Positions 8,337 to 63,776 of a DNA stretch of 64,000 bases are shown piece after piece. Source of the stretch: Acetobacter sp. DsW_063 (GTDB taxonomy: Bacteria > Pseudomonadota > Alphaproteobacteria > Acetobacterales > Acetobacteraceae); assembly GCF_002153745.1 (NCBI RefSeq), contig NZ_JOPL01000005.1, positions 186,001 through 250,000 of the forward strand. The letters are read 5' to 3'. How positions within the stretch are numbered: the stretch's first letter is position 1; each line of letters starts with the position of its first letter. The notes beneath the pieces were generated by a model. It made no database searches. It was not told where the DNA came from and saw nothing but the letters and a program-made list of their open reading frames with translations. The translations under genes and the position numbers were made by a program.

Positions 8337-9023
8337 TCACGCATCGCACCATTGCCGGACGAGGTTGTGATACACATTGGTCAGCGAAAGGACCGCCGGA
8401 TCGTCAGGTTGCGTTCGGCTCCGCAGGTCGATGATCGATCTGTCCAGAGCGAAGAGCAGCGATCGTGACGCGGCGTCTCGCACGAGCGACTGTATCCAGA
8501 AAAACGAGGCGACTCTGTTGCCGCGCGTTACGGGTGTTACGCGGTGCAGCATGGTGGTTGGATAGACGATCATGTCTCCGGCGGGCAGGCGGATCAGTTC
8601 CGATCCGCAGTCCGTCACCAGATCAAGCTCACCGTCTTCATACTCTTCGAGATCGCTGAGGAATAGCGTCGCCGAGAGATCGGCTCGCATCATCTGTCCG
8701 TTCGCGCCGGGGATGGTCTGCACCGAATTGTCGACGTGCAGGCCGTAGGTCATACCTTCGTCATAACGATTGAACATGGGCGGGTAGATGAGGCGCGGCA
8801 GGGCGAGGCCGCGAAACAGCAGACTATCGGATAAGGCCTGAAGGAGAACGGCGCGCGCAGCCGCAGCTTTCGTGCATTCTGGCGCGAGTTGCATGTTTTT
8901 CTTGCTATGGGCGGCCTGTGGCCCGGCGGTCGAGCGTCCGTCCACCCACGAGCCGGTGGCCACAAGACGCCGACATTCGGCGACCTGATCCGGCGTCAGA
9001 ATTTCCGGAATATGTACGGGCAT
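8337..9023 (-). CDS. PKHD-type Fe(II)/2-oxoglutarate hydroxylase (PiuC/YbiX family)
   Basis: A 228-residue member of the PKHD-type hydroxylase family, Fe(II)- and 2-oxoglutarate-dependent dioxygenases often linked to iron uptake loci. The H-x-D pair lies in YGLHVDNS, the second iron histidine in MLHRVTPVTRG, and the Arg of the same motif is the expected 2-oxoglutarate anchor. Length matches the family (about 225). The ATG at 9023 is preceded by a purine-rich AGGACAG stretch. In many genomes the neighbour is a TonB siderophore receptor; here none is adjacent, so its substrate is unknown. A strong hairpin separates it from the phosphoesterase gene upstream. Confidence 0.88.
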   Translation of the reverse strand: MPVHIPEILTPDQVAECRRLVATGSWVDGRSTAGPQAAHSKKNMQLAPECTKAAAARAVLLQALSDSLLFRGLALPRLIYPPMFNRYDEGMTYGLHVDNSVQTIPGANGQMMRADLSATLFLSDLEEYEDGELDLVTDCGSELIRLPAGDMIVYPTTMLHRVTPVTRGNRVASFFWIQSLVRDAASRSLLFALDRSIIDLRSRTQPDDPAVLSLTNVYHNLVRQWCDA

Positions 9024-9066
9024 TGTTTCTGTCCTGCCTGGACGCGCGGGTGAAGTGACGAAAACG

Positions 9067-9114
9067 CAGCTTCTGCCCGGGCCGACTTATTATGGTCGGT
9101 CCGGGCAGAAGCTG
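9067..9114 (-). terminator. Strong hairpin, probable intrinsic terminator
   Basis: Two 20-base arms (9067-9086 and 9095-9114) pair with a single mismatch around an AT-rich loop. Read on the minus strand the stem is followed within a few bases by TTTT, so it can terminate transcripts from the phosphoesterase gene before the hydroxylase gene. Smaller GC-rich inverted repeats follow at about 9120-9180. Confidence 0.7.
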
Positions 9115-9199
9115 ATGACAGCGTCGACGCTCTTTCGGAGCGGCGACGCTTTGGATCGGGACGCGCTTCGCCTTGAAGCGGAGCGCGTCGTCTGCGGGA

Positions 9200-11307
9200 T
9201 CAGCCGAAGAGCAGGGAACTGAGAGACGTCCAGAAATTTCCAAGAGCGGATTCGATCTCGCTCAGAAGTTTCTGGATCAGACCTGTATCGGAGGACGAAC
9301 CGCCCGTTGAGGAGGACCCTCCGGTTGAGCTGGAGCCGCCGGAGCCACCTTTGGACGGCGAACCACCCGTAGTGGAGCCGTCAGATCCGGATCCGTTCGA
9401 CGACTTGCCGAAGTCGAACATGTCCATCAGATCGCCGATGGCCGGGCTGTTTGTCGGCGCGTAGAGGTTGCTGCTCGACGTCACGGGGTTCGGAAGATTG
9501 TCACGCCCTGTGGACGAAACCGGCTTCAGACCCCAGTTCTTTTCAATGAACTTCAGGAAGGACACATGGTCGCCGTAAGTGTGGTTGATATGACCGCCCG
9601 TCGAATAGGGCGAGACCATGATCGCCGGGATACGTGTGCCGTCGCCGAAGAAATCGAGAGGCTGGATATAGCCCGAATCCCACGACCCGCCGCCTTCGTC
9701 GAAGGTCACGAGAATAGCGGTGTGCTTCCAGACTTCAGGATTCGACTTGATCTTTTCGATCACATGCTTCGTGAAGGCTTCGAAAAGCGAAGGCTTGGAG
9801 GAAGCTGGGTGACCGTCGAGAACACCGTCCGGCTTGATGATAGAAACGGCCGGGAGATTGCCCATCGCGAGATCGGCGTCGAGATCGTTGATGTCCTTGA
9901 TGTGCCCTTCGCGCTGCTGGGCGTTCGCCATAATCTTCGTTTCATACTGAAACGGATTACAGATGTCGCAATAAACGCCGCCAAGTTGACTGCTGGGGTC
10001 CTTGACGTAGTTGTCCCAGCCCGCGCCGTAGTAACGCCATGAAACCTTCTTCTCGTTCAGGCGATCAGCGATGGTGGGCACGTTCGAAGGCGGAATGACA
10101 TAGGTGCCGGTGTTGACCGTGCCATCGCCGAGATAGCCGGGGCTGTAGTTGTTGACGAGATAGTAGGCGCCGTCCTTACACCGTTTCGGGTGCTTGCCAG
10201 GAAGGGACTTCAGATACTGGGCGACCGGCTTCACACCGGGCTGGCTGTCGTCCGAACAGTTGACGTAGGAGCCGCCGGAGTAGCCGTCCTGCGTGTACCA
10301 GTTAGTCGTACCGGCTTGCGGATTTGGATTTTCGATCTGCGTGCTTGGCGGGGTTGCGACCGCGCCGTTGCCGTCCGTGTAATAAATCGCAAGACCCGTG
10401 CCGAGAGCGATGTGGTTTGCCCCGGTGCCGCCCATGATGGACTGGTGGAAATTATCGCTGGTCGTGTATTTGTCAGACAGCGACTTGAGGTATGGAACGT
10501 CGCCTGTCGCCATGTTGTAGAACCCCATGCCGACCGATCCTTCTCCGGTCGTAAGGGTTCCAAAGTTCGATGCTTGGGCCTTGCCGTTTCCACCCGTTCC
10601 GGTCTGCACTTCGACCCCAGGAAAGAGGTCGTTCAGGCAGCCTGAGGGATTTTTTGCGGTCGCGTGATCGAGCGAGCAATCCGTTTCCTGCCACATCTGG
10701 AAAAAGCGATGGACAGGGCTTCCTGTGTAGGAATCGTAAGGCAGCGTCGCGCCGGTGAACTGGAACGGTCCGTCGGGCAGGTTGTTCGCGTTGGTGATGC
10801 GTGTGTCGACGCCAGACGATCCAAGGCCGCTGGCGCCGGTCGTCATCTTCAACCAGTCGGAGCGGTCGATGCCGTCATTCCCGACTGCCTTTTCAAAGGC
10901 TTCGACGCCGGCGAGGGTCGCAAAGGGAGCGGGATCCGTGTCGGAAGCTTTGGCTGGCGTTCCGGACAGGCCCGGAGGCGGGAGAATCGTGTAAGGGGTC
11001 TTGCTCTTCGGCGCGATGGCGTACTCGGTGCTGGCGGTCGCCTGCATCTGCGCAGCGGTCGCGAAGTTCGCGCCGGGCGTTCCGTCGACCTTGACGATCT
11101 TCTTCGATAAAATGTTGTCTACGGTTTCACCTTTTTTCGGGATATATGTTCCGTAGAGGTTATCGAAAGTGTGGTTTTCGCCGTGTCGGTCTTCGCGACC
11201 GCAGGCGCCGTCGTCACGATAGGAGAAACCACCATTGAGGCCGCGGTCAGATGCGCGACCGAGCGGCCAAGCGGCTTGCGCAGGCGTCTCCAAACAGGTT
11301 GAGACAT
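9200..11307 (-). pseudogene. Secreted phosphoesterase (phospholipase C/acid phosphatase family), frameshifted near the N-terminus
   Basis: A PF04185-type phosphoesterase split over two frames. A good start (ATG at 11307, with GGAAGG about nine bases upstream) opens a signal peptide (MSQPVWRRLRKPLG, then a hydrophobic core ending APAVA). The catalytic body lies in another frame: ENHTFDNLYGTYIP, a counterpart of the family's EN-x-(S/T)-FD-x-x-x-G motif. The first beta strand that should precede it (PIKHVVVI in the intact homologue at 24 kb) is missing, which points to a small out-of-frame deletion around 11180-11200 rather than a single-base error. The rest is intact to the stop, including a Ser/Gly-rich linker and a short amphipathic tail. 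A type II secretion substrate is likely when intact. Assembly error remains possible. Confidence 0.65.
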
Positions 11308-27061: not shown

Positions 27062-27111
27062 TCGCGTTTTTCCTTGGCGTAAAAGGTCAGGTTCGGAAAG
27101 AATATGGCGTT

Positions 27112-27149
27112 GCTGGCGTTTTCGAAATTCTACAAATTCGAACGCCAGC
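27112..27149. terminator. Hairpin between convergent genes
   Basis: Arms at 27112-27126 and 27137-27149 pair over 13 bases with a small TT bulge. It lies between the convergent ends of the peroxidase gene and the urocanase-like gene and can terminate both. No long T-run follows on either strand. Confidence 0.55.
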
Positions 27150-27166
27150 TGCGTGTAGTGCGTGAT

Positions 27167-28813
27167 TCAGCGAAGATTTATATAGGGTATGTTCGATTTT
27201 TGAATTTCGTTGAATGACTCGGGGTATCCCGCATCTGCGTAGCGCATCACGCCAAGGCTGGTGTCATTGGTCAGGGTTAGACGCAACCTTTCATCCGCTT
27301 CCGACGAACCATCTGCTATGGTTGTAACGCCCGCGCTGGTCATGTAGCCAGCATATCCACCTCCACCGGAGTGGATGGCGACGAGATCGGCCTGCGAAGA
27401 GCACGCCAGCATCGCATTGAGCAACGGCCAGTCAGCAATGGCGTCTGAGCCATCCTTCATGTTTTCGGTCATTATATTAGGATGCGCCATGGCTCCAGCG
27501 TCCAGATGGTCGCGCGTGAAGGCGACGGGGCCTGACAGAACGCCCTCACGTACCATGCGGTTTACGGCCAGTGCGACTTTGGTACGATCTCCATGTCCGA
27601 GCCACGCAATCCGTGCGGGCATCCCCTCCACCGGGACGTGCTGGCGGGCGAGGGTAATCCAGTTCATCACGGATGGATTGTCGGAAAATGTCTTCAATAG
27701 ATAATCGTCGATTCGAATGAGATCGTTTTTGTCGTTGGAGAGCGCGATCCAGCGAAAAGGACCGATTCCGCGAGCAAAAAGAGGTCGGAGATAAGCTTCT
27801 GTGAAAATGGGGATGTCGAATGCGTTGGTCACCCCCGCAGTTTGCGCCTGCGTTCTGATAAGATTGCCGTTATCGAATACTATCGAGCCTTTCGCGCGAA
27901 AATCGAGCATCGCCTGCACATGTTGCGCGATAGAGGTCAGAGACAGTTTTGATAAACCACCGGGATCGCTCTGACGCATGGCCCGCGCTTCGTCGATAGA
28001 AAGGCCGCGAGGAATATATCCGTATATGAGGTCATGAGCAGACGTCTGGTCGGTCACGATATCGGGGGTCACGCCACGACGAAGTAATTCGGGGAAAATA
28101 TCGGCGGCGTTGCCGCATAGTCCGATAGAACTGGCCTCTCCGGCCGCGCGAGCCTGGTCCGCCAAACGAAGCGCCTCGTCGAGGTCCGCCGCCTGATGCT
28201 GAAGATAGCCGTTTTCAATTCGGCGCCGTATGCGCGCTTCATCGACTTCCACACACAAAATTATCGCGCCGGCCAGTCGTCCGGCCAACGGCTGCGCGCC
28301 GCCCATGCCGCCCAGACCGGACGTCAAGATCAGGCGACCGGTCAGGTCGCCGTTGAAATGTTGTTCGGCGATACGACGGAATATTTCGTAAGTGCCCTGA
28401 ATGACGCCTTGAGAGCCTATATACTGCCAGTCTCCGGCTGTCAGGCCGCCCCAGCAGATCAGCCCATCTTGCTCCAGCCGATAAAACTCATCAGCTTTCG
28501 CCCACTGACCCACGATATTGCAGTTCGCCATGATGACGATCGGCGCACGTTCATGCGTTTTTACGACGCCGATAGGCTTTCCCGATTGCACGATCAACGT
28601 TTCGTCATCATGCATCGTTGTCAACGCACTTACGATTGCATCATGCGATCGCCAGTCGCGTGCGGCTTTCCCCAATGCTGCGTAGACCACGAGGTTCGCT
28701 GGATCTTCGCCCACCGAAAGAACGTTTTCCAAAAGACGCAGCAGGCCCTCTTGCCGCCAGCCGCGACAGCGCAAATTACCGCCAGAGGTGACGCCAAACT
28801 CTTTCATGGTCAT
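27167..28813 (-). CDS. Urocanase-family protein, probable thiourocanate hydratase
   Basis: A 548-residue HutU homologue. NAD-binding GLGGMGGAQP (about 166-175), the GSQGVIQGTYE block and DQTSAHD (255-261) are kept. However, the catalytic-cysteine block, [10 protein letters not shown] in the canonical hutU at 62 kb, reads RIAWLGHGDR here, with Ala403 in place of cysteine; the C-terminal [12 protein letters not shown] block is also altered (HSGGGGYAGYMTS). The enzyme is therefore unlikely to be a second ordinary urocanase. As last gene of an operon with a MIO-less lyase and a DUF917 protein, it best fits hydration of thiourocanate to a thiohydantoin propionate. It starts three bases after the DUF917 stop. 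Confidence 0.75.
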   Translation of the reverse strand: MTMKEFGVTSGGNLRCRGWRQEGLLRLLENVLSVGEDPANLVVYAALGKAARDWRSHDAIVSALTTMHDDETLIVQSGKPIGVVKTHERAPIVIMANCNIVGQWAKADEFYRLEQDGLICWGGLTAGDWQYIGSQGVIQGTYEIFRRIAEQHFNGDLTGRLILTSGLGGMGGAQPLAGRLAGAIILCVEVDEARIRRRIENGYLQHQAADLDEALRLADQARAAGEASSIGLCGNAADIFPELLRRGVTPDIVTDQTSAHDLIYGYIPRGLSIDEARAMRQSDPGGLSKLSLTSIAQHVQAMLDFRAKGSIVFDNGNLIRTQAQTAGVTNAFDIPIFTEAYLRPLFARGIGPFRWIALSNDKNDLIRIDDYLLKTFSDNPSVMNWITLARQHVPVEGMPARIAWLGHGDRTKVALAVNRMVREGVLSGPVAFTRDHLDAGAMAHPNIMTENMKDGSDAIADWPLLNAMLACSSQADLVAIHSGGGGYAGYMTSAGVTTIADGSSEADERLRLTLTNDTSLGVMRYADAGYPESFNEIQKSNIPYINLR

Positions 28814-28816
28814 GAA

Positions 28817-29923
28817 TCAGCTCCGGTTTTCAGGAAGACCAATAGCGTAACTGGCCAGATCGATGCCGAGCGCGCGTTCCACAGGAGGGTAGACCGCAGG
28901 GTCCAGAACGCTTGATGAGAGTGGAAATTTTGTTTTTTCCACATGAAGAACAAGGATTTCGTCGCCATCGGAAATCTCCCCAACGCTAAGAGGATATCCT
29001 GATGGAGAGAGCGTTGTGATGATATCGGGGAACGAGGAGATGCGTTGTCCAGCGGCGTCGTTCACCGCCATATATTCATTCATGACATGAAGTGTAAGGG
29101 CGTGATCCCCCGCACCGACAGTAATCGTACCGACATCAAAGGCTTCCGGCGTGTAGACAACCGATTTTTTTGATACTTTCCCCTGTGCGATAATCGCTCC
29201 GTCCAGTTGCCGCACGATAGTGTCGATAATGGCCGAACCTCCTTTGGAGGCGGCGTCGATAATGGCCTCTCCGAGGGCCAGTGCGCGGGAAATCCCGCCC
29301 CATGCGGCATGACGTTTTACATAGCTGGCGCGCAGTGGATTACGGCACGATGCGATGAAGCCGCCTGACATATCCGAAGCCGTGCGCAGAATGGGAGAGA
29401 TACGCGCCGTAGCGCCTTTTGCGACGACTTCCAGATATGCGTTGTTCGCGCGGTTGCCGCCTACCACAGCCTGAATCATGGTTTCGGGCGATCCGGCCAT
29501 GCCAATAGAGCCCATGTCGCCTGTGGGGTGGGCGCGCATGTCCCCAACGGCGTCGATGACCTTTGTGCCGAGAATGGCGCCGGGCAACCATGCGTTGAGC
29601 GTGCTGGACTTGCCGTTCTGTCCGATCATCAGTCCGTAGATTGGTTGGCCCAGTTCTTTCTCGACCAGACGCACGGCGTTGACATAATCGACGCCCAGCA
29701 TCTGCCATTCCGTCGTGCTTGCGGGCGCTCCGATCGCGGCTGCGGTGGCAATGAACGCGTCGTCGGGAATCTCGTCGGCTTCGACCAGCTCAGGTTGCCC
29801 TGCGTTGACAGCTGCAGTTCCGAGCATACGGCCGTGTTCAACCCAGCCCCCGCCGCCACATGCGAAAACCGAGCCGCCAGCGATTGCGGCCTCAACATCT
29901 TTTTCAACCAGTATCCGGCCCAT
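28817..29923 (-). CDS. DUF917/S-Me-THD family protein, probable thiohydantoin desulfurase
   Basis: A 368-residue member of the family formerly called DUF917. The N-terminal domain shows the family text SVFACGGGGWVEHGRMLG and the central block (GSIGMAGSPETMIQAV, ATARISPILRTASDMSGG); the C-terminal beta domain follows (about 220-360). The family has been linked to removal of sulfur from thiohydantoins or S-methylthiohydantoins in ergothioneine-type catabolism. Here it sits between the carbamoylase and the urocanase-like gene, where a step turning the 2-thioxo-hydantoin propionate into hydantoin propionate, with release of hydrogen sulfide, is required. Whether the substrate is S-methylated cannot be told. 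The start has good spacing to a purine-rich stretch. Confidence 0.75.
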   Translation of the reverse strand: MGRILVEKDVEAAIAGGSVFACGGGGWVEHGRMLGTAAVNAGQPELVEADEIPDDAFIATAAAIGAPASTTEWQMLGVDYVNAVRLVEKELGQPIYGLMIGQNGKSSTLNAWLPGAILGTKVIDAVGDMRAHPTGDMGSIGMAGSPETMIQAVVGGNRANNAYLEVVAKGATARISPILRTASDMSGGFIASCRNPLRASYVKRHAAWGGISRALALGEAIIDAASKGGSAIIDTIVRQLDGAIIAQGKVSKKSVVYTPEAFDVGTITVGAGDHALTLHVMNEYMAVNDAAGQRISSFPDIITTLSPSGYPLSVGEISDGDEILVLHVEKTKFPLSSSVLDPAVYPPVERALGIDLASYAIGLPENRS

Positions 29924-29949
29924 CGGGCGCTCCTTTCGTTGTCAGAGCT

Positions 29950-31203
29950 TCAGTTCAGGAGGTCGCGCGCAAGTAATGCGTCAGCGAGAACGCGCGCGCC
30001 CCGTACAGCGTCTTCCGGCGCGCACCACTCGTCAGGGTCATGACTGCGACCCTCTCGACACGGCGTGAAGATCATTGCGGACGGCGCCAGCCTCGCGAGA
30101 AACGCGGCGTCATGCCCCGCTCCGGAGACCATGCGTCGTTGAGAGAAGCCGTTTTCAATAGAAGACCTTTCTATAATGCCGATCAATTCCGGCGCGCATG
30201 GCGTCGGCGAGGTATCCGACTGGATGGTGAAACGCGTCAGCGTCGTTCCGCTGATTGAGGCGGCGTCGCGGCAAGTCGCCCGAATTGCTGAAACAAGCGC
30301 CTCGGCGACGTGACGTTCCGAGACGCGAATATCGACAATCATTCGCGCCGTGCGTGGAATGACGTTGGAGGCGTTGGGAGAAATGTCGATCACTCCGCAG
30401 GTTGCGGTGACGTGGCCAGCACCGGACCCGGCTTGCACTCCGGCCTCGGAGTGAACGAAGCTGACCACATGCGCAGCCGCGACGGCGGCGTCCTGTCGTC
30501 GATCCATCGGCGTCGTCCCTGCATGGTCCGCGCGTCCGGAGAATATGATTTCCAGTCGTGTTACCCCGGCGATGGCCTCGACAACTCCGATCTGGAGGCG
30601 TTCCTGCTCAAGAACGACGCCCTGTTCGATGTGCAACTCGAAAAAGGCGCGGATATCGGAACGTCTTGGCTCCGTGAGTTGAGCGGGATCGCCGCCCATG
30701 CGCGTTATGGCTTCGCTCAGGCTTTCATCCCATGGGGCGCGTAGCGCGAGGTGCTCCTGAGTAAGCGCGCCGGTCATTCCTCGGCTTCCGATGCAGGAAA
30801 TCCCGAAGTCGCTCGGTTCTTCGGCAAGGAAGTCGACAATCTCAAGATGGTGACGCAACGATACGCCAGCGTCGGTAAACGCGCGCGCACACTCCAGGGC
30901 AGCGAGAACGCCCAAAACGCCATCGAAGCGACCGCCGTCCGGTACGGTGTCGGAATGCGATCCACTCATAAGAACGCCGACAGCGTTGTCGGATCCGGCC
31001 CTCCGTCCGATCAGATTGCCGCTTTCGTCGATGCGCGTTTCAAGGCCTGCGTCCTGAAAGCGTTCAACGAGCCACGTGCGCCCCTGCATGAAGCGTTCGG
31101 AGAAGGAGCGACGTGTGTAGGGACGAGCCGGATCGGTGATAGTCGCAAGTGCCTCGATGTCAGTCCACAGCCGGCTGCTTTGAACAAACCCGGCGATACT
31201 CAT
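29950..31203 (-). CDS. M20-family N-carbamoyl-amino-acid hydrolase, probable N-carbamoyl-glutamate amidohydrolase
   Basis: A 417-residue M20 amidase of the allantoate amidohydrolase/hydantoin-utilisation carbamoylase branch. Dinuclear metal ligands are visible: His in GSHSDTVPDGG, Asp in RFDGVLGV, Glu-Glu in DFLAEEPSDF, His in FELHIEQG and a late His in REGRSHDPDEW. SGRADHAGTTPM is the dimerisation-domain entry. It removes the carbamoyl group as ammonia and CO2; in this operon the fitting substrate is N-carbamoyl-glutamate made by the hydantoinase next door. The ATG at 31203 overlaps the hydantoinase stop (ATGA); the longer frame upstream is its shadow. It is distinct from the second M20 carbamoylase near 58 kb. 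Confidence 0.82.
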   Translation of the reverse strand: MSIAGFVQSSRLWTDIEALATITDPARPYTRRSFSERFMQGRTWLVERFQDAGLETRIDESGNLIGRRAGSDNAVGVLMSGSHSDTVPDGGRFDGVLGVLAALECARAFTDAGVSLRHHLEIVDFLAEEPSDFGISCIGSRGMTGALTQEHLALRAPWDESLSEAITRMGGDPAQLTEPRRSDIRAFFELHIEQGVVLEQERLQIGVVEAIAGVTRLEIIFSGRADHAGTTPMDRRQDAAVAAAHVVSFVHSEAGVQAGSGAGHVTATCGVIDISPNASNVIPRTARMIVDIRVSERHVAEALVSAIRATCRDAASISGTTLTRFTIQSDTSPTPCAPELIGIIERSSIENGFSQRRMVSGAGHDAAFLARLAPSAMIFTPCREGRSHDPDEWCAPEDAVRGARVLADALLARDLLN

Positions 31204-32564
31204 GAGGATGTTCTTGAGGAAGGAGGGCAGACGAACCGTCCTGCTCCCGGCTCCGCAAGCACATCGTGCCCGTCGAAAACCAGCTTTCCCCGCAACCAGG
31301 TTGCGGCGATACGCCAGTCGAGCGCGCGACCATCGTAGGCGCTCCACCCGGCGATGGAATGGCGACTATGCGTCGCGTCGTAGATCCAGTTCTCTCTTCT
31401 TGCGATTGTGATGTCAGCGTCGCGTCCCGGTGCGAGGCCGCCTTTTTGTGCGCTGAGACGAAACAGTCGTGCTGGATTTTCCGCCAGCAAACGCGCCGCA
31501 TGCGATAGAGACAGTCCGCGCCGCGTGAGTTCTGTGAGGAACAGGGGGTAGAGCGCCTCCAACCCTGGCGCGCCGGAGGCGTTTTTCAGCATCTCGGGAT
31601 CGGATTTTCTGCTCAGGGACCAGGATACATGGTCGGTGGAGACGACAGTGACGTTTCCGGCGGCGAGGTGCGCCCACAGACCTTCGACCTCTGCGCGCGG
31701 ACGGATCGGAGGGTTGATCTTCGCTCGGCCGCCCAGACGTGCGACGTCATGTTCTTCATCGAGGATGAGATAATGTATGCAGGCTTCGACGCTCGTATCG
31801 AACCCTTGCTGGCGGTAGGCTTCACACAGGGCGTAGCCGCGCGCGACGGAGCAATGCACGACATGAGCCGAACATCCGGTCGCCGCCGCCGTCTCGTAAA
31901 TCTGCGCCATGGCCAGCGTTTCCGCCAGTGGCGGACGCGACATGCCGTGGGCCCGCCAGTCCGTAACGCCGGCGCTTGTGACTGCGGCGATCCGCGCGCG
32001 GACCATTTCGTCGTCTTCGTTATGGACCCCGGCGATAAGGCCGGTTTTGGCGACGGCTTCGAAGCATGAAGCCAGCAGGTCCGGCGGAATTCTGGGGAAA
32101 CGCACTGGGTCTGTGCCAAACGTCGAAAACTTGAAGCCGCAGGCTCCTGCTTCCGCAACGGCCGGAATGTGGCGGGGACCGTCATCCGGTGCGATTGTGC
32201 CCCACAGCGCGAAATCGACGCGCGCCTGTTCCCCGGCCTCGCGCGCCTTTTGCCGGAGATTTTCGGCAGTGCTGACCAGAAAGCCGTCATCATAAGGCAT
32301 GTCGGCGATTGTCGTGACGCCGCCAGCCGCGGCGGCGCGGGTGCTCCAGATGAAATCCTCTTGCCCCTTCTGGGAGCGTGAGTGGACCTGCGGGTCGATC
32401 GCGCCGGGCAGGATCAGCGCGTCGCCATAATCCTGAATCTCACGTGCGTCGGGCGCTGGGCCCTGACCGATCTGGCTGATGCGGCCGTCGTCGATCACAA
32501 TCCAGGCCGCTGGCGACACGGTCTGTGTGGTGACGACTGTGCCTTTGAGAAGCAGGTCATGCAT
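31200..32564 (-). CDS. Dihydroorotase/hydantoinase-like amidohydrolase, probable hydantoin-propionate hydrolase
   Basis: A 454-residue cyclic amidohydrolase of the dihydroorotase-hydantoinase-allantoinase superfamily. The metal entry motif is GAIDPQVHS (residues 54-62), where the first His of the usual D-x-H-x-H is Gln59. The carbamylated lysine is probably in CGFKFST, further His ligands are in GVHNEDD and HVVHCS, and the catalytic Asp is in VVSTDHVSW. C-terminal text (NPARLFRLSAQKGGLAPGRDADITI) is typical of the superfamily. It should open a hydantoin ring; context points to hydantoin-5-propionate. The ATG at 32564 overlaps the lyase stop by eight bases. Confidence 0.78.
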   Translation of the reverse strand: MHDLLLKGTVVTTQTVSPAAWIVIDDGRISQIGQGPAPDAREIQDYGDALILPGAIDPQVHSRSQKGQEDFIWSTRAAAAGGVTTIADMPYDDGFLVSTAENLRQKAREAGEQARVDFALWGTIAPDDGPRHIPAVAEAGACGFKFSTFGTDPVRFPRIPPDLLASCFEAVAKTGLIAGVHNEDDEMVRARIAAVTSAGVTDWRAHGMSRPPLAETLAMAQIYETAAATGCSAHVVHCSVARGYALCEAYRQQGFDTSVEACIHYLILDEEHDVARLGGRAKINPPIRPRAEVEGLWAHLAAGNVTVVSTDHVSWSLSRKSDPEMLKNASGAPGLEALYPLFLTELTRRGLSLSHAARLLAENPARLFRLSAQKGGLAPGRDADITIARRENWIYDATHSRHSIAGWSAYDGRALDWRIAATWLRGKLVFDGHDVLAEPGAGRFVCPPSSRTSS

Positions 32565-34095
32565 CGGTTGGGGATTCCCTGACTGCAGGAGGGGGAAAGC
32601 GAAACGCGGCTGGCGGCGCGTTGGCGTAGGAGCGGGCGAAGCGATCCAGAACCGTTTCCGTTGACCGCAGGGCGTCGGAGACGGGACCGCTGTCGTCGAG
32701 CAAAGGCGTCTCTTGCTCCAGAGCGTGGAGAAGCGCTCCGGGCGCTCCACTGGCGTGAGCGTTCGACAGATGGATTGCCTGCCGCGCGGCCATGGCCTCA
32801 AGCGCGAGTAACGGGGCGAGCAAGGAAATCTGCGTTGTCAGTGCGCGTGCGACTGAGGGGAGGTAGCTGGCCTCGTCCTCGAACCCGTTGGCCACAGGAA
32901 TCTGATACAGCGATGTGGGCGTGGATTCCCGCAGGATCGAGGTCGTTAGATCTGCGGCAAGTTTGGTGGCGGCTCCAAACGCGACCTGCCGTCCGGGTTC
33001 GAGGGTCAGGTTGCGCGGCAGGCCGGAAAGATCCTCGCGACAGAGGGCAAGAATGCGCCCGAGCGCGCCCCGAACGTAATGGCAAAGCGCGAGGACGAGC
33101 GATTGAGCGTCGAGGGCCAGCCCAAGCGGAAGCGATGCGCCGGAAGTCATGGCCCGGCCATCGAGAAGTATCGGATTGTCGTCAGCGTGCGACAGGTTGT
33201 GCGCGAGCGTCTCTTCGGCACGGTCCAGCGCGCAGAGCAGGCCACCGCCGATTTGTGGCATGCAGCGGAAACTTAGTGGATCTTGAAGGTTTCGGCGCGG
33301 CGTCCAGTCACTTTCACTGCACAGACTTTGCAGAAAGCACGCCACGCGCGTTTCCGTTTCTGTTCCGGTGAGCCGCGCCGTTTCCCACGGCGCTCCGAAG
33401 GCGCCAAATCCTGCGGCGCTGAGGGTAAAAACTGACAGCAGCAGGGGCAACCGCGCGCGGAGGTCAGCGACGGCGATCGCCACCCCGGCAACGCCCAGCG
33501 CGTTGCTGGAGAGAACTGTCATCACGTCCTTTGGCCCCGGATCGATCGGCGCGAGACTGAACCGGGTGAGCAGCGCGGCGGCAGATTCCGGCTGCTCATG
33601 GTCGGGGCCGTAGGCGTCTCCTTCACCAAGGAGGGTGGCGCCGATATGGCTCATCAACCCGACGTCGGCGCAACCGATAGAGCCATATTCAGGCACGACC
33701 GGTGTGATACCTGCGTTCAAAAGCGCCGCGAGCGCATGGGCGAGATGCACGCTGGCGCCAGTGTGACCGGTCAGCAAGCCATTCAACCGGGCCGTCATGG
33801 CCGTCCTGACCACACGGCGCGGCATATGCGGGCCGGTTCCGAGCAAGTGGGAACGTAGGAGCCGCAGCGCATATTTCGGGCGCTCGTCACCCGACACCCG
33901 GCTGTCCTTGAATGCGCCGACCATGCTGGTCGTGCCGTAGATGCCGTCGCCTCTGTCGAGAGCGCGTTCAAGCGAGCGTTGGCCAGCAAGAAGACGCGCT
34001 ACGCCATCTCCGCCGAGCTTTACATAAGCGCCGTCAGCGACTGCGATCAGGTCGCTCAGCGGCAATGTTGTTCCGGTCAGAGTGATCGCGGTCAC
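32557..34095 (-). CDS. HAL-family lyase without MIO motif, probable ergothionase (ergothioneine trimethylamine-lyase)
   Basis: A 512-residue homologue of histidine ammonia-lyase. The catalytic tyrosine region (GIYGTTSM, Tyr53) aligns with the canonical VYGVNTGFG. The prosthetic-group motif does not: where ammonia-lyases have GSVGASGDL, this protein has GSIGCADVGL (138-147), so the Ala-Ser-Gly triad that makes MIO is lost. The later ED pair (NGFEDEASYL) is kept. An enzyme without MIO cannot easily eliminate ammonia, but trimethylamine is a good leaving group and known ergothionases need no MIO. I therefore call it an ergothionase-type lyase giving thiourocanate. The start is GTG at 34095 with AAAGG upstream. 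Confidence 0.78.
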   Translation of the reverse strand: MTAITLTGTTLPLSDLIAVADGAYVKLGGDGVARLLAGQRSLERALDRGDGIYGTTSMVGAFKDSRVSGDERPKYALRLLRSHLLGTGPHMPRRVVRTAMTARLNGLLTGHTGASVHLAHALAALLNAGITPVVPEYGSIGCADVGLMSHIGATLLGEGDAYGPDHEQPESAAALLTRFSLAPIDPGPKDVMTVLSSNALGVAGVAIAVADLRARLPLLLSVFTLSAAGFGAFGAPWETARLTGTETETRVACFLQSLCSESDWTPRRNLQDPLSFRCMPQIGGGLLCALDRAEETLAHNLSHADDNPILLDGRAMTSGASLPLGLALDAQSLVLALCHYVRGALGRILALCREDLSGLPRNLTLEPGRQVAFGAATKLAADLTTSILRESTPTSLYQIPVANGFEDEASYLPSVARALTTQISLLAPLLALEAMAARQAIHLSNAHASGAPGALLHALEQETPLLDDSGPVSDALRSTETVLDRFARSYANAPPAAFRFPPPAVRESPTDA

Positions 34096-34174
34096 GGCGG
34101 CCTTTCTTTCGTTGGCGTTGACTAAAGTGTTTCATCATCAGGGGACCGCTCCCCTATGCTTTTTGGTGCGTGGG

Positions 34175-35455
34175 CTATACCTCCGGACCGTCCGGGCCAT
34201 AAGGCGGTCGTGAGAACGCGGGCGAGAGCAGGGCGGCCAACGCCGGAAGCGCCGCGATCGACACATAAAGCGCGGCGCTGGGGACGCCGCGCCAGACATT
34301 TCCGAGAGCGGTCAAAATCGCCGGCGCGAAGCCGCCAAATAGAGAAACTGCGATATTATACGACAATGCGATGCCGCTTGCGCGCACTGATTTCGGGAAC
34401 AGCCCAGCGATTCCCAAGGGCGCCGCGCCAACAAACTGGGAAACCAGAAAACACAATAAGGCGGCGACTACGATCATGGTGATGACGCCGTGGCTGACAG
34501 TCAACATGGACAAGATGGGGGCGGGAAGAATCAAAAGCAGGAAAGCGGAGGCGAGCATGATGCGCCGTGCGCCGAACCGGTCAGCCAGTTTGCCCGCTGT
34601 AAGTGAGCCTGCCACCAGCGCGATGTTGCCAAAGAGGTAGGCCACGTAGCTGGCGTGGGGCGCGACGCCAAAAAAACGCTGCACGTAGAGAGGAAGGTAT
34701 ATGATCAGGGCATAGGGCGCAGCGCCCCATAACAGGGATAGCCCAAGTGCGGCGAAAACAGAGCCCTTGTGGCGCTTCGCCAAAACGCCGATGGCGAGCG
34801 TTTCGCGAGCTGCCACTCTTCGGACCGGCGAGAACGCGTTGCGACGCATGATGACGCCGAGCGGGATGATTGCAAGACCGATAGCAAATGGCGCGCGCCA
34901 CCCCCACCCGGCGATCTGCGCGTCGCTCAGAAACGCCGTGACGCAGGCGGCGACGAGTGCGCCGAGCATATTCGACAGCCCCATGGTCGCCTGCAGGAAG
35001 GAGGCGGCGAACCCTGCTCGTCCACCGGCGGCCCCCTCGACAAGGAATGCCGCAGCTCCTCCGATTTCGCCGCCTGCTGAAATTCCTTGTAATAGACGCC
35101 CGACGCACAGAACGATGATCGAGGCGCGCCCGGCGATCGCGTAAGGCGGGTCGAACAGAATGCAGGCTGTGCCGACGCCCATCAATGCGCATGTCAGCAT
35201 CAGCGTCGGACCGCGCCCACGCGCGTCGGCATAATGTCCGAGCAGCAACGCCCCCAGCGGGCGGGCGACGGCGCCCAGTCCGAACACCAGCAGGCTCTGG
35301 GCCAGAAGGGACAGTGGATCGGACGGCGGCAGCAATGCTTTCGCGATATAGGGTGCAAAGAGCGCGTAGACCGAGAAGTCATACCATTCGAGAAGATTGC
35401 CGACGCAGGCGGCCACGATCGTCGTTTTTTTCGCCCGTGGCTGCACCGTTGTCAT
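34175..35455 (-). CDS. MFS transporter of the metabolite:H+ symporter (MHS) family
   Basis: A 426-residue 12-helix transporter. The start (CVGNLLEWYDFSVYA) is the signature of the MHS group that contains ProP, ShiA and KgtP; GHYADARGRGPTLM is the loop 2-3 motif. MHS proteins take up zwitterions and organic acids by proton symport, and ProP accepts betaines, so import of ergothioneine (itself a betaine) is plausible. It is separated by 79 bp from the lyase gene and by 15 bp from the TonB receptor gene, all in one direction. Confidence 0.83.
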   Translation of the reverse strand: MTTVQPRAKKTTIVAACVGNLLEWYDFSVYALFAPYIAKALLPPSDPLSLLAQSLLVFGLGAVARPLGALLLGHYADARGRGPTLMLTCALMGVGTACILFDPPYAIAGRASIIVLCVGRLLQGISAGGEIGGAAAFLVEGAAGGRAGFAASFLQATMGLSNMLGALVAACVTAFLSDAQIAGWGWRAPFAIGLAIIPLGVIMRRNAFSPVRRVAARETLAIGVLAKRHKGSVFAALGLSLLWGAAPYALIIYLPLYVQRFFGVAPHASYVAYLFGNIALVAGSLTAGKLADRFGARRIMLASAFLLLILPAPILSMLTVSHGVITMIVVAALLCFLVSQFVGAAPLGIAGLFPKSVRASGIALSYNIAVSLFGGFAPAILTALGNVWRGVPSAALYVSIAALPALAALLSPAFSRPPYGPDGPEV

Positions 35456-35470
35456 GACGACGCCTCGTGC

Positions 35471-37849
35471 TCAGAAACTTGCGCTGATCGTGCCGAAGAA
35501 CTGCCGTGGCGCGCCCATCAGGAAATAATTGTAGCCGGTATTCGTGAAGTTGTTTCCCAGTTCGTTCGTCGTCGCGATGTAGGTTTTGTTCGTCAGGTTG
35601 TAGATATTGAATGCCGCAGTAATGCCCTTCAGAGGCCCTGCATTTCCAAAATTGTATCGCGCTCCGAAATTCATCAGGAAATATCCCGGCGCATGCAGGT
35701 CGTTGGTATAGGTCAACTGCCGATGCGACATGTAGATTCCGTCGACATGCGTATCGAAACCGCCGATGCGGTAGGTGATGTTCGCTTTATACATGAACTG
35801 CGGATAGTTCGGGACCAGTTTGCCGCGCGTCGGCTCGACGCCGGAGGACGTCGCGACGTTCTGGTCATACGTCGAGTGCGCGTAGGAGAAGGAGTTGTAG
35901 ATTGAAAGGCCTTCCAAAGGCCGAACGGTCACGCTCGCTTCCGCGCCGTTGGTCGTCACGCCGCCGACGTTCTGCACTGCGGTGATCGGGTTGATACCCG
36001 AATTGTTGGTGATCAACTGCAACCGGTTGGAAAAATTGATGCGATAGAGGGAGGCGAGAGCGCTGACAATCGGGGAGGTGTAGCGGTAGCCGCCTTCGTA
36101 TACCCAGTCCGTTTCCGGTTTCAGCGTGTTTTTCGTCGCCTGAAAACTGGCCTGCGAGGCGGTCCACGGCGTCGCCGACACGTTGGTTCCGTAGCCGTCG
36201 AGAGGGAAGGACCGCATGTTATGCGATACGTCGAAGAACAATTCGTGACGAGGCAGGAATCGCCATATCGCGGAAACCTGAGGCAGGAAGGCGTTTGACG
36301 CCTCCAGACGCCCCTGCGCGACCTGTGTGCCGTTGATGGCGGCGTCCTGCGTCAGCACGCTGTTGCCGGAATTGACGATCATCGACTTGAAGCCTGCGTT
36401 CACCGTCAGTGTGTCGGTAATCTTGTAGGTGTCCTGCAGGTGGAACACGAATGTGTTCGTGGAGAACGCTTCCTGCCATGGGGTCGCAAAAATTTTGTTG
36501 CCCGGAAAGCCGGTGGTCGGGTTGCCGAGCGTGCCCTGCCCAAGCAGCGGCGCCTCGGTGAAATAACGGCTTTCGGTGAAGTTGCCGTATTCATACCAGA
36601 CGCCCGCATTCAGTTTATGCCGCCCGATTTTCCATGTCAGGGCCGTTTCGAAACCGCCTCGCGCGATGCCCGGAGTCTGGACGCGCTGCGAGATCGGCGC
36701 ACCGTTAGGCGAAGGCATGTAGGGTGTCGTCCAGGTGCTGTATCCGCTATCGCCATGGGCGTACAACGTGGTTTTCCAGTTCAGCGACGATGTGAGATTT
36801 TCGTCGAGCGTAACGCCGCCCAGATAGTCGACGCGATTGGCCGTGCCCGCGTAGTAAGCGGCGTCGAGAGGATCGTTGGTCTTGAGCACGGTCGAAGAAT
36901 AGTGGCCGAGGGCCGCGTTATAGGCCGCAGTGTAATCGGGGTAATAGTTGGCGAGGTTGGGGCCGACCGTATGCAGCCAGTTCATCGTCATGTCCTGATA
37001 GTCGAACTGCTGGATCGAACTCCAGTCGAAGAAGACTTTCACGGAAGAGCCACGCGCGAGCGGTTGTACGAATTTCGCATTGACCTGATCCGAATGATCG
37101 TAACCGGAACCTTTCCACAAATTTTCATTCAGGCGCGCGTAAGAAACGTAAAACCGCGTTCCGGTCGGGTTCAGGTCGCCGCTTTCCAGACGCACGAACG
37201 TCCGCATCGTGGAATTGCTGCCGAAGGTCTGGCCAATTGAGCCGCCCCGCTTGTGCGACGGATCAAGCGAGTGCGTCTCGATGGCTCCGCCCAGGTTGCT
37301 GGTGGAGGCGACGTCGATTGCGCCTGCTCCCTGCGATACGTCGACGCCACCGACATTGTCAGAAATGATGGCGCGCGTCACGGCGAGGCCATTGTAGTTG
37401 TTAAACTGTTGATCGCCGAGCGGAATGTCGTCGAGCGTGAATCCAAGTTGAGACTGGCTGAACCCGCGCATGAAAATCTGGCTGGAATACTCATAAGCGC
37501 CAAATGGATCCGCCGATTGATAGACGACGCCCGGCAATTGGCTCAGCACCTTCAGGGGCGACGTGCCGGGCACGCTTTGCTGCATCATCGTGTGAGTGAC
37601 GCTGGTCATTTGCCGTGTGGAGCCGCGCCCGAAGACGGTCACGGCTTCGTTGCCCTGCGCGATCGCCTTGGCGTGTCGTGGCGTGGATTGTGGGCTGGTG
37701 GGTGAGGATGCAGAGCCTGCCGCCGCGGGGTGCGTCAGCGGCTTTCGCAACGTCTTCGGTTTGGAGGAGGTTGGGGCTGCGTAGGCGCTGGAAATAATTG
37801 CAAGGCTGCTGATGATGCTGGAAAGTGTGAGGAGTTGCCGAGACGTCAT
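35471..37849 (-). CDS. TonB-dependent outer-membrane receptor
   Basis: A 792-residue receptor with a signal peptide (residues 1-24, ending SAYA), a Pro/Ser/Thr/Lys-rich linker and a plug domain. The linker is followed by NEAVTVFGRGST, a possible TonB box, then LPGVVYQSADPFGAYEYSSQIFMRGFSQSQ; the beta barrel runs to the end with a terminal phenylalanine (GTISASF). The ATG at 37849 directly precedes the signal peptide; the longer frame overlaps the upstream MFS gene. It imports a substrate across the outer membrane with energy from TonB. Placed between two transporter genes of the putative ergothioneine operon, it may bring in the same compound or a larger conjugate. Confidence 0.87.
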   Translation of the reverse strand: MTSRQLLTLSSIISSLAIISSAYAAPTSSKPKTLRKPLTHPAAAGSASSPTSPQSTPRHAKAIAQGNEAVTVFGRGSTRQMTSVTHTMMQQSVPGTSPLKVLSQLPGVVYQSADPFGAYEYSSQIFMRGFSQSQLGFTLDDIPLGDQQFNNYNGLAVTRAIISDNVGGVDVSQGAGAIDVASTSNLGGAIETHSLDPSHKRGGSIGQTFGSNSTMRTFVRLESGDLNPTGTRFYVSYARLNENLWKGSGYDHSDQVNAKFVQPLARGSSVKVFFDWSSIQQFDYQDMTMNWLHTVGPNLANYYPDYTAAYNAALGHYSSTVLKTNDPLDAAYYAGTANRVDYLGGVTLDENLTSSLNWKTTLYAHGDSGYSTWTTPYMPSPNGAPISQRVQTPGIARGGFETALTWKIGRHKLNAGVWYEYGNFTESRYFTEAPLLGQGTLGNPTTGFPGNKIFATPWQEAFSTNTFVFHLQDTYKITDTLTVNAGFKSMIVNSGNSVLTQDAAINGTQVAQGRLEASNAFLPQVSAIWRFLPRHELFFDVSHNMRSFPLDGYGTNVSATPWTASQASFQATKNTLKPETDWVYEGGYRYTSPIVSALASLYRINFSNRLQLITNNSGINPITAVQNVGGVTTNGAEASVTVRPLEGLSIYNSFSYAHSTYDQNVATSSGVEPTRGKLVPNYPQFMYKANITYRIGGFDTHVDGIYMSHRQLTYTNDLHAPGYFLMNFGARYNFGNAGPLKGITAAFNIYNLTNKTYIATTNELGNNFTNTGYNYFLMGAPRQFFGTISASF

Positions 37850-37880
37850 TGCGGTATTTCCCTGGCTTGTAAGGTGGGTT

Positions 37881-39182
37881 TCAGAGGGCCGTTGGACGAT
37901 GTGCGGCGTCGCCCGGACGCAGCCCGAATTGGTAGATGAGTGCGCATCCGACGCCGATTGCGCTGGCGACAAGCATCGACGGCGTAAAACTGGAGAAATG
38001 ATCGGCCAGCGCGCCGGTGATCGCTGGCGCCAGGGCTCCCCCGAGAGAGCCTCCAGTATTTTGGATGGCTTCGAGCGTAGCGACGCGATTTTCCGATGCG
38101 ATAACTGTTCCGAGAGTCCACCCGCACGTCATGGCGAGCCCTCCCGCAAACAGGGCGAGCGCCATAAACGCGACCATGAGAGGGAGACCAAGGTGTAACG
38201 TCGTCAAAGCGGTGGCGCAGGCTGAGGTCAGCATAGCCAACACAAGTGGCGTTCTGCTGGCGTTGAGTGGATCCATCCCACGAGCGGCCAGCCGATCCGA
38301 GATGAATCCGCCCAGAACGCTCCCGGCGAAACCGCAGAATTGAGGCGCAGCCGATAAAAGTCCGGCTTGATCGGCAGTCAGTTTCTGAGATTTTTCGAGC
38401 CACGCAGGCATCCACGTCGCATAGAGCCATGTCACGTAGATGACGCCAGCGAAACCGGCGGTAATGACCCAACTCGAACGTCTACGCAGCAGATAGCTTA
38501 GATCGTCTTTGAGGATTCCGGTAATTCCGGAATGAACCGTGGGTGAAGGCGGAGGAAGAGCGTGACGATCATCTGGCGCGAGCGGCAACTCCTGCGGTTC
38601 GCGATAGAAAATAATCCAGGCCAGTGCAAGAAGAAGGCTGACGGCGCCGATGGTCACCGACATGCCGCGCCAGCCCCACACCGCCATGATCGCAAGCAGA
38701 ACTGGCGGGGCGATGGCTGGCCCCAAAGCGGCCGAGCCGTTGAACAACCCGATCGGCCGTCCGCGTTCTTCCGGGCTGAACCACAGGACAAGCGCGCGCG
38801 TGCCCGAAAGGAAAAGCGGCGTCTCGCCTAGTCCTAATCCGATGCGGGCAAGAAACAGACCCGTAGAACCATGCACAAGCCCAAACGCCATTTGGGCGCA
38901 GGACCAGATAGCGAGCCCCGCGCCAAGAAGGCTTCGGCTGTTGACGCGATCCGCGAGCAGACCCATCGGAATTTGTCCGGCGAGATACGCCCAGGCGAAG
39001 ACCGATAGCAGCAGGCCCATCCGAGTGTAGGACATGTGCATATCCGCCATAACTGCGGTGCTGCTGACCGACAGCGCTGCTCGGTCGATGTAGCTGATGC
39101 AGCCAGCGGCTATCAGAAAAGCGACCGTCCATGTCCGGCGGCGCGCGACGGCAGGGGAGAGAGACGCAGGCGACGCGCTCAT
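37881..39182 (-). CDS. MFS transporter, anion:cation symporter-like (ACS family)
   Basis: A 433-residue 12-helix MFS protein. The first helix carries AAGCISYIDRAALSVS, the typical (F/Y)-x-D-R-x-x-x-(S/N) signature of the ACS/GudP/ExuT group, and LLADRVNSRSLLG is the loop 2-3 motif. Substrates in the family are organic anions such as glucarate, galactonate and aromatic acids; thiourocanate or a related acid would fit here. The ATG at 39182 shares ATGA with the regulator gene's stop, so expression is coupled to that regulator. The downstream TonB receptor gene follows after 31 bases. Confidence 0.82.
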   Translation of the reverse strand: MSASPASLSPAVARRRTWTVAFLIAAGCISYIDRAALSVSSTAVMADMHMSYTRMGLLLSVFAWAYLAGQIPMGLLADRVNSRSLLGAGLAIWSCAQMAFGLVHGSTGLFLARIGLGLGETPLFLSGTRALVLWFSPEERGRPIGLFNGSAALGPAIAPPVLLAIMAVWGWRGMSVTIGAVSLLLALAWIIFYREPQELPLAPDDRHALPPPSPTVHSGITGILKDDLSYLLRRRSSWVITAGFAGVIYVTWLYATWMPAWLEKSQKLTADQAGLLSAAPQFCGFAGSVLGGFISDRLAARGMDPLNASRTPLVLAMLTSACATALTTLHLGLPLMVAFMALALFAGGLAMTCGWTLGTVIASENRVATLEAIQNTGGSLGGALAPAITGALADHFSSFTPSMLVASAIGVGCALIYQFGLRPGDAAHRPTAL

Positions 39183-40429
39183 GCCGCAGGCTTTCGTGAC
39201 GCGGAGTTTCCCTCCATACGAATTTCGGCGAAACATGCGCGCAGACGCTCGATGATCGCGAGATTCGAATGATCCTTCCTCCATATCAGGCGCGTCGTCA
39301 TGCGGTAACGATCCGGCAGAGGCCAGGCATGGACAGCCTGAGACTGAAACGATCCGGCGGGCAGAATTGCGCAGCATGTTCCGTCTTCGACGAGCCGGAG
39401 GATCAGCGACAGCGACTGCGTTTCAAAAATTGCGGTTGGCGTTACGCCTTCCTGATCGAGATAGCGATCCGTGATGCGGCGTAGGCCTGTCCCCAGAGCG
39501 GGCACGGCAAGAAGTTGCGTGCTGATGATCATTTGTGGCGTTTGTCCGCTTCTGGGGCCATGCGAGCGGTCGAACACCAGATAAATTGGCGATCTTTCGA
39601 GATCCTCGCGATCCAGACTGGATGGAATATCGATCAGGTCGGTCAATCCGGCGTCGAATCTGCCGTCGAGAAGTCCTTCCACCATCTGCGGCGCGGCGAT
39701 GGTCGAAATTGTGAGGGAGGGTTGATAACGGCGGTGGCGCCAGAGACGAACGAGGTTGGCCAGCACTGCTGTCAACGAGCTTTCGCTACTGGTCGGCATC
39801 ATGGACGCAAGGCGCAGCGTTCTTGATTCCCGGAAATAGCTGAAGTTCTCGTCTCGGGTGATTTGCCGGTATGTGTTGTCTACGAGCTGGCACCCCTGCC
39901 GCAGCAGCTCGGCGGCGGCAGTTGGTTCGGCTCCACTGGAACTGCGCACGAAGAGCGTGCGACCGAGAATGTCCTCAAGCCTGCGGATCTGCCGCGAAAG
40001 CGTCGGTTGCGTAAGCGACAGCCGTTGCGCCGCCGCAGCGATACGCCCCGTTTCGTAGACGGTGAGGAAGTAACCGATCATGCGCAAAGTCAGGCCTGAC
40101 TGAAGCAGGGCGCGCATGTCGTGGGTCGACAAAGGGGCGGGTGCGTTCTCTTCGGGCTGCCCGATGATCTGGTTGTTGGAGATCAGGGATCCGCACCAGC
40201 CCAGTAATTGACGGGCGGAGTTATACAGGCTTTCGCCATACGCGGTTGTCAGCGCCCGGCCTCCCTTGCGGAGCGACGTGCGGGACAAGAGGTGCGCCGC
40301 CATCGCCTGTTCAAGCGCAGACACGCTGTGAGTGATCGCGGACGCGCTGACGCCCAGAGCGAGGGCGGCGCGCGCGGCGGAGCCTTCGTCTATAAGGCTC
40401 GTAAAGTAGATCAGTGCCGGAAGTTCCAT
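39179..40429 (-). CDS. LysR-family regulator with two tandem N-terminal HTH domains
   Basis: A 416-residue regulator, about 110 residues longer than ordinary LysR proteins (300). The extra length is a second DNA-binding domain. Residues 1-60 (YFTSLIDEGSAARAALALG) and residues 114-172 (YFLTVYETGRIAAAAQRLS, then TQPTLSRQIRRLEDILG) are each complete LysR winged HTH units, joined by a roughly 50-residue linker. The effector-binding domain runs from about 204 to 400. It is the first gene of the nine-gene operon and overlaps the next by ATGA, so it probably controls the cluster and itself. AT-rich inverted repeats about 65-95 bp upstream are candidate operators. Confidence 0.85.
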   Translation of the reverse strand: MELPALIYFTSLIDEGSAARAALALGVSASAITHSVSALEQAMAAHLLSRTSLRKGGRALTTAYGESLYNSARQLLGWCGSLISNNQIIGQPEENAPAPLSTHDMRALLQSGLTLRMIGYFLTVYETGRIAAAAQRLSLTQPTLSRQIRRLEDILGRTLFVRSSSGAEPTAAAELLRQGCQLVDNTYRQITRDENFSYFRESRTLRLASMMPTSSESSLTAVLANLVRLWRHRRYQPSLTISTIAAPQMVEGLLDGRFDAGLTDLIDIPSSLDREDLERSPIYLVFDRSHGPRSGQTPQMIISTQLLAVPALGTGLRRITDRYLDQEGVTPTAIFETQSLSLILRLVEDGTCCAILPAGSFQSQAVHAWPLPDRYRMTTRLIWRKDHSNLAIIERLRACFAEIRMEGNSASRKPAA

Positions 40430-41121
40430 TCCTGCGTGCGCCCCGGAGACTGTGATGACGAGAGTCTTGTCGTGAACGTTTGCGGGAGTGAGAAATAAAT
40501 AACTAATTATTTTTGTTATTTATAAAAACCCCGCCCCGCAATCGTATCGCAGCACTTCTGTAACGATCTCGCAATTGCAATCGTGCAAGAGGCATGGGGC
40601 GTGCACAAAAAAGCATATATGTTGAAACGATCGAGTGATCATTGATTTTTTGAAATGAGTCGCGCGGAGGCGGGAGAAATCCGGGGGAAAAGCCTGGGCC
40701 AGCGCATCGTCGGATGCGCCGGATGTGCGAAACTGTTCCGGCGAAGTGCACGCTTTGCGGTCTGAACGGAGCGCCGCGGGTTGGGGCGTGTCAGGCCGTA
40801 ACGAACCGGACGATTTGATAAAGACGCATCAGAACGAAAAACCAAAGCCTGTAATGTTCTTGAAAGCCACGTGCGAGCGTCTTCAGGCGGGCAGTAGGGC
40901 AGGCCATCAAGGTGAAAACGAGAGATAGTTCCGACAGACGCTCTTAGTCCGGCAAACTCAGTGAAGGGAGAACGCTCCGGGCCGACGCGCTCCCCGATCT
41001 GAATCGTCCAGAAAACTCGTCGGCCGGAAGATGGCTTCCAGTTCGCTCTAAAACGGACCCGAGCCCTGTCGTCATCTACTTCGGCAAAATGACCGAAAGC
41101 GGCGCTACCTGAACGGCCGGC
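40430..41121. other. Intergenic region upstream of the LysR-led operon
   Basis: No supported gene in about 690 bp. The left part is AT-rich and holds a 9-base perfect inverted repeat with an 11-base spacer (40495-40503 and 40515-40523) and a TTGCA-N4-TGCAA repeat (40575-40588), both plausible LysR-type sites. The right part (about 40650-41120) has normal GC and only short frames with no recognisable family; a decayed gene or mobile-element remnant is possible but I could not identify one. Confidence 0.5.
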
Positions 41122-63773: not shown

Positions 63774-63776
63774 ACT

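Follow-up and report, generated by a model that had tools for sequence, protein, structure and literature searches.

A nine-gene operon of Acetobacter with predicted functions in ergothioneine breakdown, uptake and regulation

The chemistry of the five steps by which bacteria break down ergothioneine is established, and the pathway was reportedly described by Beliaeva, Leisinger and Seebeck in 2021. Ergothionase, which lacks the 4-methylideneimidazol-5-one (MIO) group, is described in the excerpt of a 2026 paper as confined to a limited number of genera, with divergent homologues uncounted and possibly missed, and the sources named there as definite are Burkholderia, with a characterised enzyme under accession BAM63550, Cupriavidus, A. 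radiobacter and T. denticola [PMC13405746]. Bacterial uptake of ergothioneine is assigned, in the excerpt of a second paper, to the ATP-binding cassette (ABC)-type importer EgtU/EgtUV [PMC9732360]. Here we describe a nine-gene operon on the minus strand (40429 to 27167) of a 64,000-nucleotide stretch of the Acetobacter sp. DsW_063 genome (contig NZ_JOPL01000005.1, positions 186,001 to 250,000; hereafter the window). It shares all five enzyme families with the five-step pathway of Beliaeva and colleagues and differs from the operons of that pathway in its occurrence in acetic acid bacteria, its distant lyase, its two operators and its set of a TonB receptor, two major facilitator superfamily (MFS) carriers and a LysR-type regulator with two helix-turn-helix (HTH) domains. 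In contrast to the ABC-type EgtU/EgtUV, uptake in this case would depend on TonB and MFS proteins and is tied to breakdown. In our judgement this is very probably an ergothioneine catabolic operon of Acetobacter, with uptake, five-step breakdown and LysR control as set out below.

All nine genes are intact and free of inner stops, and encode, in operon order, the double-HTH LysR regulator, a carrier of the anion:cation symporter (ACS) type, the TonB receptor, an MHS-type MFS carrier, a lyase resembling histidine ammonia-lyase (HAL), a hydantoinase, an M20 amidase, a DUF917/S-Me-THD protein and a urocanase-like protein, with spacings of -4, 31, 15, 79, -8, -4, 26 and 3 bp (negative values are overlaps). 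An earlier note, made from the letters of this DNA, had listed nine collinear minus-strand genes with overlaps or short gaps; its coordinates are exact, and domain matches bear out all nine of its family assignments. Four of the five enzymes score above the curated cut-offs of the NCBIfam release 20 equivalog models for the ergothioneine pathway. These are the thiourocanate hydratase of the urocanase family (27167..28813, 548 aa; NF058530, 996 bits, cut-off 930), the thiohydantoin desulfurase (DUF917 with S-Me-THD_N/C domains; 28817..29923, 368 aa; NF058529, 595 bits, cut-off 440), the ErtE-type N-carbamyl-L-glutamate amidohydrolase of the M20 family (29950..31203, 417 aa; NF058540, 556 bits, cut-off 520) and the ErtD-type hydantoin-5-propionate amidohydrolase (31200..32564, 454 aa; NF058538, 759 bits, cut-off 600). 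The ergothioneine-pathway assignment of the earlier note holds, and its DUF917 protein, for which a place away from the desulfurases would have spoken against that assignment, falls within the desulfurase family. The catalytic cysteine, said to be missing from the urocanase-like protein, is indeed replaced: alanine occupies the position of the HutU active-site cysteine in the window protein and in 14/14 thiourocanate hydratases, and cysteine is present in all six HutU rows compared, which were drawn from 15 hutU-level loci. As a separate observation on ErtD, the first histidine of the HxH motif, presumably a metal ligand, is glutamine in the window (32370-32405, hydantoinase residues 54-65) and in 21/21 related loci, and the L-hydantoinase 1gkr has histidine at this position.

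The fifth enzyme, a 512-residue protein with a GTG start (32557..34095, PF00221), is the predicted ergothionase. It carries CAD where MIO enzymes carry ASG(D), so that the absence of the MIO triad claimed earlier is correct. Among 22 operon lyases, from which that of locus L047 was excluded because it retains the MIO triad, the site reads CAD in 21 and CGD in one (L092). The best match in the PDB by sequence is 6s7j, the ergothionase of Treponema denticola (1.5e-53, about 29% identity), and a fold search with the AlphaFold2 model of the lyase also ranks 6s7j best (E 2.4e-24), with the best HAL next (3.6e-22). A 43-row tree unites 15 lyases of acetic acid bacteria with seven that come from other thiourocanate-hydratase operons (100/100 support) and sets this clade apart from the MIO enzymes; a position among the true MIO ammonia-lyases had been named in the earlier note as grounds for giving up its reading. 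Four residues, S196, D305, H339 and K378, are invariant in 22/22 operon lyases, the same in 6s7j and absent from 13/13 MIO rows, and all three groups share Y53, R277 and E406. Gene order, family membership, phylogeny, this active-site signature and the paired operators described below are seen directly in the sequence. We take the 22 operon lyases to be ergothionase-type betaine lyases. The window lyase resembles 6s7j in its fold, in its lack of MIO and in its equivalents of all seven residues. It differs in the former MIO site, which reads CAD where 6s7j has EGD, and in its separate branch. The host has a second HAL-like gene outside the window (L002, G000:C16:37598-38974), which also lacks the Ala-Ser-Gly triad (GSVGYL) and has similar rows in other genomes.

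Several observations weigh against the proposed function. No ergothionase model was matched in the NCBIfam search of the lyase, which scores far below every HAL cut-off of that collection, and the identity of the lyase to its MIO-less counterparts in other operons of this kind is only 31-38%, compared with 47-71% among the remaining four enzymes. The fold margin of 6s7j over the HALs is small, and the model behind it has a predicted local distance difference test (pLDDT) score of 77 and was built on an alignment of 14 close relatives. Phylogeny did not unite the lyase with the T. denticola enzyme: in the 43-row tree 6s7j is a long, unstable branch of unsure place outside the operon-lyase clade, and a second tree of 48 rows again puts it on the other side from the operon lyases, with weak support. 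Within the nine genes, to which the search was confined, no gene of a recognised trimethylamine- or sulfide-handling family is found; in this respect, the earlier description of the operon as self-contained calls for a qualification. Finally, the TonB receptor is not confined to ergothioneine operons, as discussed below.

The LysR-type regulator (39179..40429, 416 aa) has two separate Pfam HTH_1 matches, at residues 5-63 (7.7e-11) and 115-174, followed by a LysR_substrate domain; a BLAST comparison of its two HTH domains with each other gave no match. A 28 bp element, TATGCTTTnTTnTGCAnnnnnnATGCMT, precedes LysR in 14 sequences and consists of three ATGC-like repeats spaced 10 and 11 bp apart. 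The window copy, operator 1 (TATGCTTTTTTGTGCACGCCCCATGCCT; 40590..40617, minus strand), begins 188 bp upstream of the LysR ATG. A matrix built from the 14 LysR-side sites detected a second site in every sequence; in the window, this operator 2 (34155..34182, plus strand) is inverted, precedes the lyase start by about 60 bp and straddles the MHS stop codon. When the target's own group was held out of matrix training (A. garciniae being grouped with Gluconacetobacter), the two sites were the two best matches in 14/14 sequences, with a close third match in L028 (15.2 versus 15.9) and a reversed order of the two sites in L035. Column-shuffled matrices (12 shuffles, four loci) placed none of their top-two matches at the lyase site. 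Whole-genome searches with up to two mismatches returned three, three and two sites in G000, G011 and G003, two per genome being the operon operators, and reversed-pattern controls returned zero, one and zero. New in this analysis are the conserved ATGC-repeat operator, which each operon has twice, once ahead of the regulator and once ahead of the lyase, and its recurrence, with the TonB receptor and the double-HTH LysR, around another MIO-less lyase, as described below. The double-HTH LysR is predicted to bind both copies.

Three genes encode putative uptake proteins. The ACS-family carrier (37881..39182, 433 aa) starts with an ATG that overlaps the LysR stop by 4 bp. The TonB-dependent receptor (35471..37849, 792 aa) has Plug and beta-barrel domains and an N-terminus that, judged by eye, resembles a signal peptide; it has no PDB relative at 1e-6, and in a plasmid search its relatives were at most 44% identical among the 15 of 18 rows listed. 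The MHS-family carrier (34175..35455, 426 aa) matches TIGR00883 at 5.6e-80, below cut-off, and also stays below the cut-offs of the TcuC and ProP models. EgtD was not found in 3/3 Acetobacter-genus genomes tested, one of which is G000, only 69% complete; this would suit a scavenger of ergothioneine.

Searching genome contigs with the lyase yielded 13 named loci, three in Acetobacter, five in Gluconacetobacter, four in Gluconobacter and one in Komagataeibacter. The nine genes occur in the same order in 13/13 of them, and the arrangement is therefore not due to chance. Five genes that flank the operon in the window (fumC, a cytochrome c peroxidase gene, a phosphoesterase gene and two others) are present in only 2/13 loci, with a few kb read on either side, suggesting that the nine genes hold together as a unit and may have moved as such. 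Another family member, G837, has eight of the nine genes in the stretch read, which starts inside the ACS gene. The nearest named loci are those of Acetobacter sacchari and A. nitrogenifigens, with a lyase identity of 97%, and the host, whose assembly comprises 3.03 Mb and is 69% complete, is an Acetobacter near these two species. Thiourocanate hydratases over the cut-off are rare, with 4/61 in the relatives, 4/299 in the family, 5/385 in the class and 6/398 in the phylum draw, each count including the window's own genome.

Nine other hydratase loci were read over 20 kb. All five enzymes are clustered in six of them (L045, L046 and L048-L051), as they are in the window. In contrast to the window operon, none of the nine has a match at 1e-4 to its TonB, ACS or MHS proteins; among the selected neighbours scanned, which left out the transporters of L045 and L049, there is an OpuAC-type ABC system in L046, binding-protein-dependent permeases in L052 and other MFS carriers in L048, L050 and L051. 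The betaine-type OpuAC transporter of L046, located within an ergothioneine-type operon, is counted as support for a role of the window operon in ergothioneine breakdown. The L049 lyase has plasmid relatives in Ochrobactrum, Rhizobium and Shinella. Two of the nine loci deserve a separate mention. In G682, a double-HTH LysR (L052:2198-3523) is found near thiourocanate-hydratase genes and an ABC transporter, and in G122 a thiourocanate hydratase and a thiohydantoin desulfurase lie beside the lyase that retains the MIO triad (L047:5814-10603), which is perhaps a pathway for thiohistidine and not for its betaine.

The TonB receptor has a wider distribution than the enzymes. Among 100 genomes searched, a receptor at least 73% identical was found in 13, four with the ergothioneine operon and nine, all of the genus Acetobacter, without it; the next relatives listed reach at most 47%. 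None of these nine genomes (0/9) has a thiourocanate hydratase over the cut-off. In a second comparison their receptors were 72-76% identical to that of the window, and eight of the nine genomes have, in the stretch read, an ACS carrier of 41-53% identity. In five (L121-L125), the receptor (74-75%) stands beside a different MIO-less lyase that is 30% identical to the window enzyme and, to judge from two of the five, keeps the equivalents of S196, D305 and K378 and not that of H339. These loci have a LysR regulator 44-46% identical to that of the window over its length, both HTH regions included, and the best match to the window operator precedes it in 5/5 (18.6-19.6 bits). They also carry a mu-crystallin-like gene, adjoined by desaturase-like and phosphonate-binding-like genes, and in the 4/5 whose stretch extends far enough an HTH_3 gene and the ACS carrier are found. 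This sister operon thus resembles that of the window in its receptor, double-HTH regulator, MIO-less lyase, ACS carrier and related operator. It differs in its mu-crystallin-like, desaturase-like, phosphonate-binding-like and HTH_3 genes and, within the stretch read, in the absence of a hydratase, a desulfurase, ErtD and ErtE. The MIO-less lyase of this operon, of which L125:470-11009 is an example (lyase at 8412-9950), has SEGD at the MIO site. The remaining four of the nine genomes have the receptor near an ACS carrier, with no lyase in the stretch read.

Since the receptor also occurs beside a different lyase, it cannot be called ergothioneine-specific. The same distribution supports the proposal that the enzymes degrade ergothioneine and that the receptor and the ACS carrier import something else or a broad substrate class. 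Against this, both proteins are encoded inside the operon in 13/13 named loci, with a copy of the same operator on either side, and we regard the proposal as unlikely, yet serious enough to be kept in view. A receptor for the betaine class would fit the observations, except perhaps at the four loci without a lyase. The regulator and uptake genes, which the earlier note took to be the operon's own, do accompany the enzymes in every named acetic-acid-bacterial copy, and dedication to ergothioneine is too strong a claim for them, with related TonB, LysR and ACS genes next to another lyase in five genomes.

The substrate, the transport roles and the LysR-operator binding are matters that we infer, and the following route is hypothesized. 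Ergothioneine, or a closely related betaine, would pass the outer membrane through the TonB receptor and the inner membrane by way of one MFS carrier or both. Trimethylamine would then be removed by the MIO-less lyase to yield thiourocanate, which would be converted by the hydratase to thiohydantoin-5-propionate. Next, the DUF917 enzyme would swap sulfur for oxygen in this intermediate, ErtD would open the hydantoin ring to form N-carbamyl-glutamate and ErtE would release L-glutamate, CO2 and ammonia. LysR, the product of the operon's first gene, would bind the ATGC-repeat operators ahead of its own gene and of the lyase gene, and the paired operators would let the uptake unit and the enzyme unit answer the same signal.

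Other substrates have to be weighed against ergothioneine. The pathway for S-methyl-ergothioneine, with release of methanethiol instead of sulfide, uses the same families, and the hydratase and the desulfurase also match its models; the scores, however, are well under those of the thio models and under the models' own cut-offs, with 762 bits (cut-off 880) for S-methyl thiourocanate hydratase and 281 bits (cut-off 450) for S-methyl thiohydantoin desulfurase. On these scores the S-methyl compound was rejected as the substrate and is very improbable, so that of the earlier claim of ergothioneine or a close relative, ergothioneine is the favoured part. Another proposal names as the substrate ergothioneine sulfonate or a different thiohistidine betaine that is oxidised or substituted, with sulfur lost as sulfite. 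Against this stands the thiohydantoin desulfurase of the operon, which clearly exceeds its cut-off and would be needless if sulfite left earlier. The lyase, which diverges most among the five enzymes, would fit such a substrate, and a sulfonate pathway has been published, going by a title cited for Agrobacterium radiobacter [PMC13405746]; taken together, we find this route quite improbable. A side branch of histidine utilisation, with the lyase and the urocanase-like protein acting on histidine or urocanate, would involve the same superfamilies, and the urocanase-like protein matches hutU with 706 bits, above the general hutU cut-off of 375. However, the lyase has no MIO triad, the urocanase-like protein has no catalytic cysteine and separate hut genes are present from 62151 onwards; this reading was rejected on these three grounds, and we give it next to no chance.

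Two further features of the window remain to be listed. A hairpin 3' of the last operon gene (27112..27149, minus strand; fold z-score -3.48 for 27080-27166) may mark the transcript end and has no clear T run. The hutU/hutH pair, for ordinary histidine breakdown, starts within 62151-64000, about 22 kb off the operon, and its hutH passes the window end.

Apart from ergothioneine breakdown itself, the likeness to the sister operon raises the tentative idea, to which we give somewhat less than an even chance, of a portable uptake-and-control cassette for amino-acid betaines. It would consist of the TonB receptor, the ACS carrier, the double-HTH LysR and helically phased ATGC operators, joined to at least two MIO-independent betaine lyases, that of the window's ergothioneine route and one in other genomes of the genus. 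In the open-access literature, no title was found on TonB-dependent uptake in an operon of this kind, the matches for ergothioneine and TonB-dependent uptake concerning Methylobacterium by title; among the matches listed, none dealt by title with ergothioneine in these bacteria, and no paper combined most of the pathway's terms. The enzyme chemistry is already known, and the uptake and control parts look like what differs, having not been found described in the literature searched. As the search covered open-access literature, the link of TonB, MFS and LysR proteins to ergothioneine breakdown is called novel only as likely. We know of no earlier route by which ergothioneine or a related betaine is taken up with the help of TonB, and the cassette, if real, would be the first.

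Ergothioneine is a diet- and fungus-derived antioxidant, and its loss to trimethylamine-releasing bacteria is debated. With this operon, four named genera of acetic acid bacteria, known from fruit, insects and fermented food, gain a predicted ergothionase that is divergent and easy to overlook. The operon also supplies gene targets for TonB-dependent betaine uptake together with a regulator that has predicted binding sites.

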